Origin: an uncultured Pelagibacteraceae bacterium
GTDB lineage: Bacteria; Pseudomonadota; Alphaproteobacteria; Pelagibacterales; Pelagibacteraceae
Length of the DNA: 64,000 bases
Direction of reading: 5' to 3'
Assembly: GCA_902558225.1 (NCBI GenBank)
Contig: CACEDG010000001.1
Coordinates: 47,222-111,221, forward strand
Numbering within the stretch: position 1 is the stretch's first letter; every line of letters starts with the position of its first letter. Shown piece after piece: positions 12,196-54,711 of the stretch. The notes beneath the pieces were generated by a model, which saw only the letters and a program-made list of their open reading frames with translations, was not told where the DNA came from and did not search any database. The position numbers and the translations under genes are program-made.

Positions 12196-13163
12196 TCAAT
12201 TGAATTCTAATAGTGCGTTAACATGTTCATTAGAACAATCAGCTAAAGCATTTAAATCATAACCACCCTCTAAAATAGATACAACTCTTCCCTTGGTAAA
12301 TTCGTTTGTTGCTATAATAGCTCTTTTAGTAATTTCATAAAAATCTCTTGGTAATAATTTGAAATTTGCAAGGGGGTCTCGCTCTTCTGCATCAAAACCC
12401 ATACTTATAAGCAAAAATTCTGGCTGAAATTTTATCAATTTATCTAAAACTCTATCAAAGGCGTTAAAATATTCTCTAGAGCCAGTTCCAGCGGGCAAAG
12501 GGACATTAAAAATATTGTCATAATTTCCTTTTTCTTTTTCACTACCAGTTCCAGGATAAAATGGATATTGATGAGTTGATAAACACAAAACTTTTGCATT
12601 GTCGTAAAAAATGTCACTCGTGCCATTGAAATGATGTACGTCTGGGTCGAGTATTGCTATTCTTTTGTATTTATATTTATCAATGAGATAGTGTGCACCA
12701 ACTGCTACATTGTTGTATATGCAAAAACCCATAGCTTTATCTTTTTCTGCGTGATGTCCAAATTAAGACCAGTGCCCCCTAATTAAAGAGGGCACTAGCC
12801 CCCAGGCGGTCTTACGACGCAAAAAGCGTTTTTATATTTTTTTTGTTCGACAGAGTCTATTGCCTTTAAAATAGAACCTACCGCTTCTTTTGTTGCTTTT
12901 TCACTACCTGGTGAAATTACAGTATCTCCATCTAAGAATTTTAAACCCTCTTTTGGAAAGCTTTTTTGAACCATATCAATATATTTTTCGTCATGCGCTT
13001 TCTTTAAAATATTTAAATCAAATTTTTTAGGTTTATCCCAAATTAAATCATTCCTTTTTTTTAATTTTTCAATTATTGCAACAACTCTTGCGGGTCGCTC
13101 AGGATGTCCATCACCAGTCAGATGGTTTGCTGATGTGTCTGAAGTTATAATTGCAGTACTCAA
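12196..13163 (-). CDS. Histone deacetylase-family protein, interrupted by a 44-nt hairpin element (fragments 13163..12801 and 12756..12196)
   Basis: N-part ends ...NAFCVVRPPG, C-part begins HHAEKDKAMGFCIYNNVAVGA...DPDVHHFNGT; together a contiguous HDAC domain of 307 aa. Confidence 0.88.
12757..12803 (-). other. Bypass-like or intervening hairpin element in the HDAC-family gene, including flanking GGG and GGA codons
   Basis: Minus strand: CCT GGG GGC TAG TGCCCTCTTTAATTAGGGGGCACTGGTCTTAATTT GGA CAT CAC; stem GTGCCCTCT/AGGGGGCAC; in-frame TAG. Confidence 0.8.
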
Positions 13164-46419: not shown

Positions 46420-48233
46420 TTATTCTTTCTTATTTTTATTTTTTTTATCTCCTAATTTTTCAGTCAAAGATGAAAATTTTTCAGACAAAGATTTAAAAGG
46501 AAGATTCTTTCCACTCAAAGGACTTGAAAATTTAGTCACAGCTTCCTTATTTTGTAATTCCTCTAATAATTTAATACTTAAACTTACTTTTCTTTTCTCC
46601 AATGATATATCAGCAATGCAACAATCTATACGATCCCCATCAACGAAACGTGAAACACGACAATCAGCTGGGTTTATAGCAATCTGGGATTTTTTGATAA
46701 ATAAATTGATTTCACAACCTCCCTCTGGTCTGACAGTTAGTCCTTTATTATCTTTGCTCACTATTTTTACGGTTAGAACTTGATTAATTTTTTTATCCTT
46801 AAACCAGTCATATGGGTCAGCCTTAGTTTCACGATGACCGCAACGAATCTTCTGTTCTGAAGAATTTACCTCTAATACCTTAACCAAGATCTTATCATTT
46901 TTTTTATACTTATTTAATTCCTCTTCGCCGTTATTTAAATACGATAAATTATTGGCATGGAGAAACATTTGAGCCTCTGTGTCTTTGAATTTTACAAATA
47001 ATGCATATTCATTTTTACTTATGACTTCAGCTTCATCGATAGTGCCAATAGGATATTTAGATTCGAAGACATCATAAGGGCTATCAAAAGTTTTTTTATA
47101 GCTTATCGCAATTTTCCTATTTTCCTTATCTATATTTGTAATTATACAGAAAATCTTTTGGCCCACCTTAAACATTTTTTTTGCAGACGCATTTTTATTT
47201 GTGTGTGAGAGCTCCGTGTTATGCAACAAAGAAATCAACCCTGGTTTTAATGAGCAAAACGCACCAAATTCAGTGATCTTATCTATCGTTACTTCGTGTT
47301 TTGAATTTATTTGATAGTTGTCGATATCGTCAAACGGATCTGGGAACATTTTTTTACGCGACACCCCGATCTGGAGTTTGTCAATGTCAACGCTAATCAC
47401 CTTCACATCGTATAACTTTCCAACTTCAAATACCTCATCAACATGATTTATCCTCGAGTAGCTTGCCTCATGAATATGACAGAGAACATCTAGCTCGCCG
47501 TTGACAGTTAAAAAAGCACCAAAGGAATTTAAACTTTTACATTCTGCATTTTTTATGATCATTCCTTCTTTGTATTTGGATATTAATTTTGATCTGTCTT
47601 CTTTTTTAAAGGAAGAGATTATTTCTTTTCTTGATACGCATGCATTTCCAAATCGGCGACCACCCCCCAGCCGTTTTAAAGGCCGGGGGGCGCCGCCCCA
47701 CGCAATTTATCCAATTTTATGATTGCAAATTTTTGTGGAACATTCATAAGTTTTGAAATGTCCTTAATCGGTGAAATGTCCACCTGTGAACCCGGCAAGA
47801 AGGCCAGACTTCCAGTCTCTACATGCTCGACAATAAAACCGCCTTTCACACGCTGTTTTATGATACCGTTAATTGGCTCATTTTTTTCATAGTGAGAAAC
47901 GATAGAGTCCCACCCTTTTATTTTTTGTGCTTTGGTTGCGCTTACAACTATCTCGCCCGTTTTAGGATGCTCAATCTTCTCTAGCAGTACCGGAATTATT
48001 TCACCCAACTTAATTTTTTCACCTAAACCTAAGGATTGTAATTCCCTAATGTCTAAAACTGGTTCAGATTTTAATTCTGGACAATGCAAAAATACATATT
48101 TGTCTGTTATTTTGTTTATTTTGCCTTCTATAATTTTACCCTCTTCTATTTTTGTTTTGGAAAGCTGGCTTTTCAACAATTCATGAAACTCTTTTGACGC
48201 TGGAGTTGATAGGTCTTCCTTATAAATTTCCAT
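46420..48233 (-). CDS. rpsA: 30S ribosomal protein S1, interrupted by a 50-nt hairpin element (fragments 48233..47697 and 47646..46420)
   Basis: N-part ends ...FAIIKLDKLRG, C-part begins NACVSRKEIISSFKKEDRSKLISKYKEGMIIKNAECKSLNSFGAFL; multiple S1 domains; predicted joined length 587 aa. Confidence 0.92.
47647..47699 (-). other. Bypass-like or intervening hairpin element in rpsA, including flanking GGG and GGA codons
   Basis: Minus strand: CGT GGG GCGGCGCCCCCCGGCCTTTAAAACGGCTGGGGGGTGGTCGCCGATTT GGA AAT GCA; near-perfect GC-rich stem; in-frame TAA. Confidence 0.85.
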
Positions 48234-48888
48234 ATTTTTTTTTAATTCTTTCTTTTACTAAATTAATAAGTTTTTTCTCCATTTGTTTAATTGTTAATTT
48301 AGTGGTGTCGACTAATACAGCATTTTTAAGCTTTATCAAGGGACTTATTTTTCTATTTCTGTCATCTTTATCTCTTAGATAAAGAGCTTTTTCGACTTGA
48401 TTTAAGGTAATTTTTTTGTTTTGAGCCTTGAATTCTTTAAATCGCCTTCTTGCCTTCGCTTTAGGAGAACAAGTAAAAAAAAGCTTAAGATCTGCTTTAG
48501 ACCCTAAAATTTTAGATCCAATATCTCGTCCTTCAATTATCAATAAATTGGAATTTTTTATAAAGTTTTTTTGAAAACTCATTAGTGCTTTTCTTACAAA
48601 AGGTTTTTTTGCGATAATTGATGAAAGTTTCGTTACTTTAGGACTGTAAAGTTTTTTATTATTTAAATTGTTTAATTTTATAGTTTTAGCAATTTTATTT
48701 ACAAATTTTACATTATACTTACATTTATTTTCTAATATTTTTAAAGCACAAAATCTGTATAAAGCTCCGCTTGAAAGAAATTTCATTTTAAATTTTTTAG
48801 CGATTAATTTTCCTCCTGTAGTTTTCCCTGATGCACTACTTCCATCAGCAGCAATTTTAAATTCAATATTGTTTTTTAATTTTCTCAA
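48220..48888 (-). CDS. cmk: Cytidylate kinase
   Basis: KIAADGSSASGKTTGGKLIAKKF, FLSSGALYR, IIEGRDIGSKI. Confidence 0.93.
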   Translation of the reverse strand: MRKLKNNIEFKIAADGSSASGKTTGGKLIAKKFKMKFLSSGALYRFCALKILENKCKYNVKFVNKIAKTIKLNNLNNKKLYSPKVTKLSSIIAKKPFVRKALMSFQKNFIKNSNLLIIEGRDIGSKILGSKADLKLFFTCSPKAKARRRFKEFKAQNKKITLNQVEKALYLRDKDDRNRKISPLIKLKNAVLVDTTKLTIKQMEKKLINLVKERIKKKYGNL

Positions 48889-54159: not shown

Positions 54160-54711
54160 TTAAGCTGAGCCAATTTTTTTTCCTATAAATTCTGGTACTT
54201 CATCTTTTTCAGTAATTTCGTCTTTTTTAACTTTAGAGTCACGACTTTGATACGAGTATAAAAGATGCAATTTACAATAGCTGAAATCTTTTAATGAAGT
54301 TCTTCCACAAAAATAAAAACCTTTTTCATTGGGATGTCCTATTGGATATTTGCAATCGTTATCTGTTAACTCCTCTAATTGTTTTGGATTTTCAGGCTCA
54401 AAGTCTTTATCAATTAATAATGATTTAAATCTACTCCTTCTTCCTTTTATTAATTTATTATCTTTATTTCCCACTGAATTATTAAAATTTTCATTAGATG
54501 TCACTTTTCGAGCTTTGATTTTTGCTGAGAGATTTAGTCTATGAGCTTTTCCTTTTGTTTGCGCTATGCCCCTCTAAAGTTAGAGGGGCAAAATGCGCCC
54601 AATGACGGCATTACGCGAGATGCCGCCAATAATCTCCGCTATTTGAGAGGCTGTGTTTCCTTTGCCCCATAATTCTTTTAATTTTGCAACTTTTTCTTCA
54701 GTCCAACTCAT
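54160..54711 (-). CDS. gcrA: GcrA-family cell-cycle regulator, interrupted by a 48-nt hairpin element (fragments 54711..54598 and 54549..54160)
   Basis: N-part MSWTEEKVAKLKELWGKGNTASQIAEIIGGISRNAVIG; C-part KAHRLNLSAKIKARKV...KYPIGHPNEKGFYFCGR; joined length 167 aa. Confidence 0.9.
54550..54600 (-). other. Bypass-like or intervening hairpin element in gcrA, including flanking GGG and GGA codons
   Basis: Minus strand: ATT GGG CGCATTTTGCCCCTCTAACTTTAGAGGGGCATAGCGCAAACAAAA GGA AAA GCT; stem TGCCCCTCTA/TAGAGGGGCA with GCGC/GCGC outer pairing; in-frame TAA. Confidence 0.85.

Follow-up and report, generated by a model that had tools for sequence, protein, structure and literature searches.

Hairpin inserts between glycine codons of three SAR11 chromosomal genes are likely skipped by programmed ribosome bypassing

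How could a SAR11 bacterium produce ribosomal protein S1 from an rpsA gene whose reading frame is broken by a 50-nt hairpin? The gene lies in the 64,000-nt stretch of DNA analysed here (the window; 29% GC), which belongs to the genome of a SAR11 (Pelagibacter-like) bacterium, a draft of 42 contigs that totals 871 kb and is 74% complete (G000). The gene stands where it normally does, flanked by cmk and an IHF-type gene, in the order aroA-cmk-rpsA-ihfB-like-pyrF, and its closest named relatives are Pelagibacter and Pelagibacteraceae records. The relevant features are:

46420..48233, minus strand: rpsA (ribosomal protein S1), 587 aa with the insert skipped, with S1 domain matches
47697..47699, minus strand: rpsA take-off codon GGG (Gly); the hairpin has its 5' base at the last G of this codon
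47647..47696, minus strand: rpsA insert, 50 nt including the landing GGA (47649-47647), made up of a 17-bp stem and then an 8-nt tail ending in GGA

Read straight through, rpsA gave a 185-aa open reading frame ending at TAA. When the 50 nt were left out, which changes the frame by +2, a complete 587-aa S1 protein was obtained with the junction LDKLRG^NACVSRKEII, and the RG^NACVSR part of this junction agreed with almost all of the aligned intact relatives (more than 100), none of which carried an insert at this site. No other 40- to 60-nt stretch of the window was as GC-rich as the insert, and the predicted fold of the insert (-37.4 kcal/mol, z -4.3) was not equalled by any of 200 shuffled sequences. 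A first-pass annotation had described the insert with its coordinates, its GGG and GGA boundaries, the truncated reading and the restored S1, all of which held in full, as did its remark that a GC-rich palindrome stands out in an AT-rich region. Its description of the two glycine codons as matched held only in part, as they are identical in their first two bases.

No family in Rfam reached the gathering score at the rpsA insert, which was present as a single copy in its own genome and was found neither in 60 same-genus genomes nor in IMG/VR. A second intact rpsA, which the annotation had named as a refutation, was not found in the 74% complete assembly; the other S1-domain matches there belong to other genes. 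Given that the genome is incomplete, it remains possible that a second rpsA or further inserts are missing from it.

Among 217 same-genus genomes with rpsA, the gene was in two pieces only in G000, G089 and G242. The G089 split was due to a +1 indel at a distance from the insert site rather than to a bypass insert, and the G242 split reflected a gene spread over two contigs; a split in G084 was likewise a +1 indel. The indels in G089 (G089:C6:9388-11095) and G084 (G084:C11:15292-17008), at query residues ~427 and 465, may be errors or real frameshifts. As a separate observation, rpsA and cmk (window 46420-48888) were unusually divergent from the complete relative G012, whereas the neighbours aroA and pyrF were not. 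Identity between G000 and G012 was ~57-70% for rpsA (median of other genomes, 81%) and 41% for cmk (72% in other genomes), which leaves room for possible relaxed selection on both genes.

Two further inserts, both overlooked by the first-pass annotation, were identified in the window. One, in gcrA, was found through a GC-hairpin pattern search of the source genome, in which no other GC hairpin proved to be an insert. The other, in a histone-deacetylase-family (HDAC) gene, surfaced from a comparison of 790 genes common to the source genome and G012. Their features are:

54160..54711, minus strand: gcrA (GcrA cell-cycle regulator), 167 aa with the insert skipped; the end was computed from the protein and the insert length
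54598..54600, minus strand: gcrA take-off codon GGG (Gly)
54550..54597, minus strand: gcrA insert, 48 nt including the landing GGA (54552-54550), with in-frame TAA and TAG inside
12196..13163, minus strand: histone-deacetylase-family gene (Hist_deacetyl), ~307 aa with the insert skipped; its exact start is undetermined
12801..12803, minus strand: HDAC take-off codon GGG (Gly of RPPG)
12757..12800, minus strand: HDAC insert, 44 nt including the landing GGA (12759-12757), with TAG two codons past the take-off codon

In gcrA, ISRNAVIG ends with GGG and is followed by the 48 nt with the landing GGA and then by KAHRLNLS; the joined protein (NAVIG^KAHR) scored 122 bits against Pfam GcrA. In the HDAC gene, RPPG ends with GGG and is followed by the 44 nt with the landing GGA and then by HHAEKDKAMGFC; the joined protein (RPPG^HHAE) scored 292 bits against Hist_deacetyl. 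The predicted folds of the gcrA insert (-25.5 kcal/mol, z -6.3) and the HDAC insert (-27.9 kcal/mol, z -6.4) were each as good in 0 of 200 shuffles.

The three loci also emerged when the whole 871-kb genome was scanned blind. The scan sought GGN..GGN gaps of 36-65 nt with 35 open codons before, 30 open codons after and the zero frame closed, and ranked them by gap folding energy. The top three loci were the rpsA, gcrA and HDAC inserts, and the next independent locus stood at -18. As a control, a scan of this type was applied to 5 kb of T4, where the gene 60 gap came out on top. In the 1.2 Mb of G012, the best match (-22.3) was a terminator-type hairpin by its look, although it was not examined in detail, and no coding case was established; protein comparison also revealed no hairpin insert in G012. 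A wider scan with other codon pairs gave no convincing extra case. Split genes in G012 and at other SAR11 loci were mostly explained by 1-nt indels and start-site effects, with no hairpin insert recognised among them. An epimerase-like gene in the source genome (L168, G000:C13, 15184-15187) changes frame by one base at a T7 run, for which a sequence error or simple indel is the probable cause.

We also observed that all three inserts of the 871-kb genome fall within 42 kb of a single contig (window 12757-54600), for which we have no explanation. Many genes in this stretch are less similar to G012 (medians of 47-70% per 10 kb) than those on most other contigs (mostly 70-85%).

The three inserts share one build: a take-off GGG glycine codon, a strong hairpin, a short tail and a landing GGA glycine codon. 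In all three, the last one or two G of the take-off codon begin the predicted stem, which covers most of the gap. Skipping restores a conserved protein at every junction, and each of the three gaps contains an in-frame stop, so none of them can be read through. The net frame change is +2 in rpsA, 0 in gcrA and +2 in the HDAC gene, and the insert lengths modulo 3 are 2, 0, 2 and 1 for rpsA, gcrA, the 44-nt HDAC form and a 46-nt HDAC form found in another genome (see below). Thus what is kept between inserts is the glycine-to-glycine layout, whereas the frame change is not conserved. Sequence kinship among the elements is not claimed: a covariance model of the HDAC element found the other two only at noise level.

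The take-off codon was GGG in 3/3 cases even though this triplet makes up only 1147 of 15821 Gly codons (7%), and intact relatives at the rpsA and gcrA positions, the two sites with many aligned sequences, mostly have GGT or GGA. The third G is therefore probably part of the element. The placement of the inserts in in-frame sense glycine codons is weaker evidence, since 42% of the GGA triplets within coding DNA are of this kind and three of three would be expected by chance at ~7%.

Since a single genome out of 217 had the rpsA insert and two out of 74 had the gcrA insert, conservation evidence comes from the HDAC gene alone. The second gcrA case is known from coordinates only (G083:C5:27825-28371), where gcrA is split at the position seen in the window by ~46-49 nt with a TAA; the HDAC gene is intact in G083, and the gcrA site is empty in G091. 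The HDAC gene was present in 223 of the 260 same-genus genomes searched and was in two pieces only in G000, G009, G017, G091 and G095 (5/223). Judged from coordinates, all five genomes have the insert between residues 121 and 122, and it is 44 nt long in all but G095, where it is 46 nt; the second piece opens with residue 121, the landing glycine, in 5/5. The 44-nt and 46-nt forms shift the frame differently, and ordinary frameshifting is therefore disfavoured.

BLASTN alignments spanned the HDAC insert in G091 (97% of 181 nt), G017 (77% of 170) and G009 (77% of 160), with equal lengths on both sides; the insert region was gap-free in the G009 and G017 alignments. The DNA of intact genomes matched one side of the insert only. 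When neutral drift to 77% identity was simulated, ~5 stops arose upstream and ~7 downstream in the HDAC halves (~12 in all), and a stop-free outcome was obtained in 0 of 2000 simulations. In contrast, no stops were observed in the coding halves at 77% identity, indicating that selection acted on both halves while the insert was in place. In G017, a TAG was present where the upstream match continues beyond the take-off codon. The halves were also open in G009, G017 and G095 at 58-76% protein identity. The same-site inserts in four other genomes and the long upkeep of both halves are direct results, and the interrupted gene is thus old and maintained. The G095 gene (G095:C15:25121-26084) is ~60% identical and carries its 46-nt insert at the common codon, and an old insert, transfer and independent insertion at the same site are all possible for it. 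No HDAC relatives were found in viral contigs.

We consider programmed ribosome bypassing of hairpins in bacterial chromosomal genes to be the likely and best explanation of these inserts, as the first-pass annotation had proposed for rpsA by analogy with T4 gene 60; no RNA or protein data are available, and translation is inferred. The two additional genes and the HDAC conservation strengthen this proposal. By its features the class fits, expression being inferred: in 3/3 genes a non-coding gap separates two open reading frames that jointly encode one conserved protein, the take-off and landing codons are GGG and GGA and thus readable by one tRNA, and the take-off codon lies at the base of a predicted mRNA stem-loop, as in the T4 control. 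It is generally known that tRNA-Gly(UCC) reads both GGG and GGA, and a gene for this tRNA is present in the genome.

In the proposed mechanism, the elements are short hairpins inserted inside glycine codons and skipped during translation. The ribosome would arrive at the take-off GGG with peptidyl-tRNA-Gly in the P site, and the stem starting at the last G of this codon would block the A site. The peptidyl-tRNA, probably with anticodon UCC, would then release GGG, the 44-50 nt of hairpin and tail would slide past the ribosome, and the tRNA would re-pair at the landing GGA so that decoding restarts at the next codon. Release and re-pairing of peptidyl-tRNA-Gly fits because reading would have to stop at one glycine codon and restart after another in any frame. 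The retention of the insert in mRNA, the ribosome jump, the hairpin as its trigger, the efficiency, the production of the fused protein and the origin of the elements are inferred only.

The resemblance to T4 gene 60 is partial. The likenesses are the 50-nt gap (in rpsA), glycine take-off and landing codons and stops in the gap (PMC5009743, PMC11194080), together with a stem whose 5' arm includes the take-off codon and a landing GGA at a distance of 50 nt (T4 record). The SAR11 gaps of 44-50 nt are within the limit of T4 bypassing, in which a stem-loop in the A site helps to start sliding and processivity is high up to 56 nt (PMC11194080). However, T4 gene 60 is a single phage gene with GGA/GGA, whereas three chromosomal genes with GGG/GGA are found here. 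In T4 a stop directly follows the take-off codon, while rpsA has GGG GCG, gcrA GGG CGC and the HDAC gene GGG GGC TAG; as no stop directly adjoins take-off, the SAR11 inserts do not belong to the T4 subtype, and in this respect the likeness that the first-pass annotation saw for rpsA is incomplete. The T4 take-off stem is weak, unlike the one very strong hairpin over most of each SAR11 gap. Finally, a KKYK nascent peptide (~30 residues upstream) and a 5' stem-loop are important in T4, but a need for a nascent peptide has not been shown here. We noticed no KKYK at the T4 distance in rpsA or gcrA. The HDAC gene does have a KKYK some twelve residues ahead of its take-off codon (window 12803-12850), but this was not accepted as a T4-like signal, since the motif also occurs in the intact G012 gene, which lacks the insert.

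The SAR11 pattern is nearer to that of Magnusiomyces capitatus mitochondria, in which 81 bypassing inserts occur in 12 of 15 genes (PMC5009743). Both have short inserts in several genes, tolerated by translation and with imperfect codon matches (PMC5009743), but the yeast system uses mitochondrial ribosomes with relaxed decoding, whereas here a free-living bacterium has 3 inserts found, all from GGG to GGA. Discontinuous decoding has been proposed in bacteria for a Prevotella loescheii adhesin (29 nt) and the Streptomyces phage Hau3 terminase (PMC5009743); these are single, unconfirmed genes without a recurring element architecture. No confirmed bypass in a bacterial chromosome was reported in the bearing sections of the review PMC5009743, and none was found in the open-access literature searched, although its absence is not thereby proven.

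Of the rival explanations, recent insertion of palindromic mobile elements (MITE- or REP-like) with GG duplication, leaving the genes inactivated or giving two separate polypeptides, is the least improbable but still unlikely. It is favoured by ends that resemble a 2-bp duplication (GG..GG), by the ~7% chance of hitting sense glycine codons three times out of three and by patchy occupancy between genomes. However, the HDAC gene is open on both sides in three diverged genomes, rpsA is the only copy found and sits in its native place, and the three elements cannot be recognised as copies of a single sequence; a split into two polypeptides would break an S1 domain, the PPGHH motif and the conserved N-terminal part of GcrA. 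The shared sequence expected of a MITE family was not seen, given the single-copy rpsA insert and the noise-level matches of the HDAC model. As a precedent, Rickettsia palindromic elements and other palindromic MITEs are short palindromes that sit within the coding genes of an alphaproteobacterium. Rickettsia elements are known to be in-frame, stop-free and residue-adding, whereas the SAR11 inserts have stops or shift the frame, must be skipped and lack a common sequence. An in-frame peptide insertion of the Rickettsia kind was ruled out by lengths of 50, 48 and 44 nt with in-frame stops.

Excision of the hairpin from the mRNA and joining of its ends, so that the ribosome never meets the insert, appears very unlikely. 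The hairpin form and the exact restoration fit it as well as they fit bypass, and the GG repeat at both ends would give ambiguous but usable junctions. Yet group I and II introns are longer than these 44-50 nt inserts, nothing in Rfam attained its gathering score at the rpsA site, bacteria are not known to splice bare hairpins out of mRNA, and the GGG/GGA glycine pair in each case is accounted for by tRNA re-pairing but not by splicing. An assembly or amplification artefact, which the first-pass annotation had listed as a possible refutation, can be all but excluded. The assembly is a 42-contig draft without reads to check, but three different, unrelated GC-rich hairpins with one architecture and one codon register speak against it, as does the presence of the HDAC insert in four other assemblies, in two of which insert and gene have diverged together.

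Bypassing remains the preferred reading, with several points weighing against it: the rpsA and gcrA inserts are known from one and two genomes, the codons match in only two of three bases, the stems are far stronger than those of T4, no T4-like nascent-peptide signal has been shown, and the rpsA/cmk divergence could mean relaxed selection. A bolder reading, towards which we lean by a narrow margin, is that these inserts represent a class of intron-like, ribosome-skipped elements in SAR11 chromosomal housekeeping genes, gained and lost between related genomes and sited in every case within a glycine codon that tRNA-Gly(UCC) reads, with ordinary host ribosomes bypassing strong hairpins without a gene-specific nascent peptide.

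So far, one phage gene and one group of yeast mitochondria are the only established cases of efficient bypassing. The 44-50 nt elements offer compact natural material for asking what ribosome jumps require. If the bypassing interpretation is correct, gene callers would split such genes unnoticed, bacterial ribosomes would be able to use bypassing for housekeeping genes, and one of Earth's most abundant bacterial groups would carry a recurring, evolutionarily maintained set of bypassed inserts in its chromosomal genes, including that for S1.
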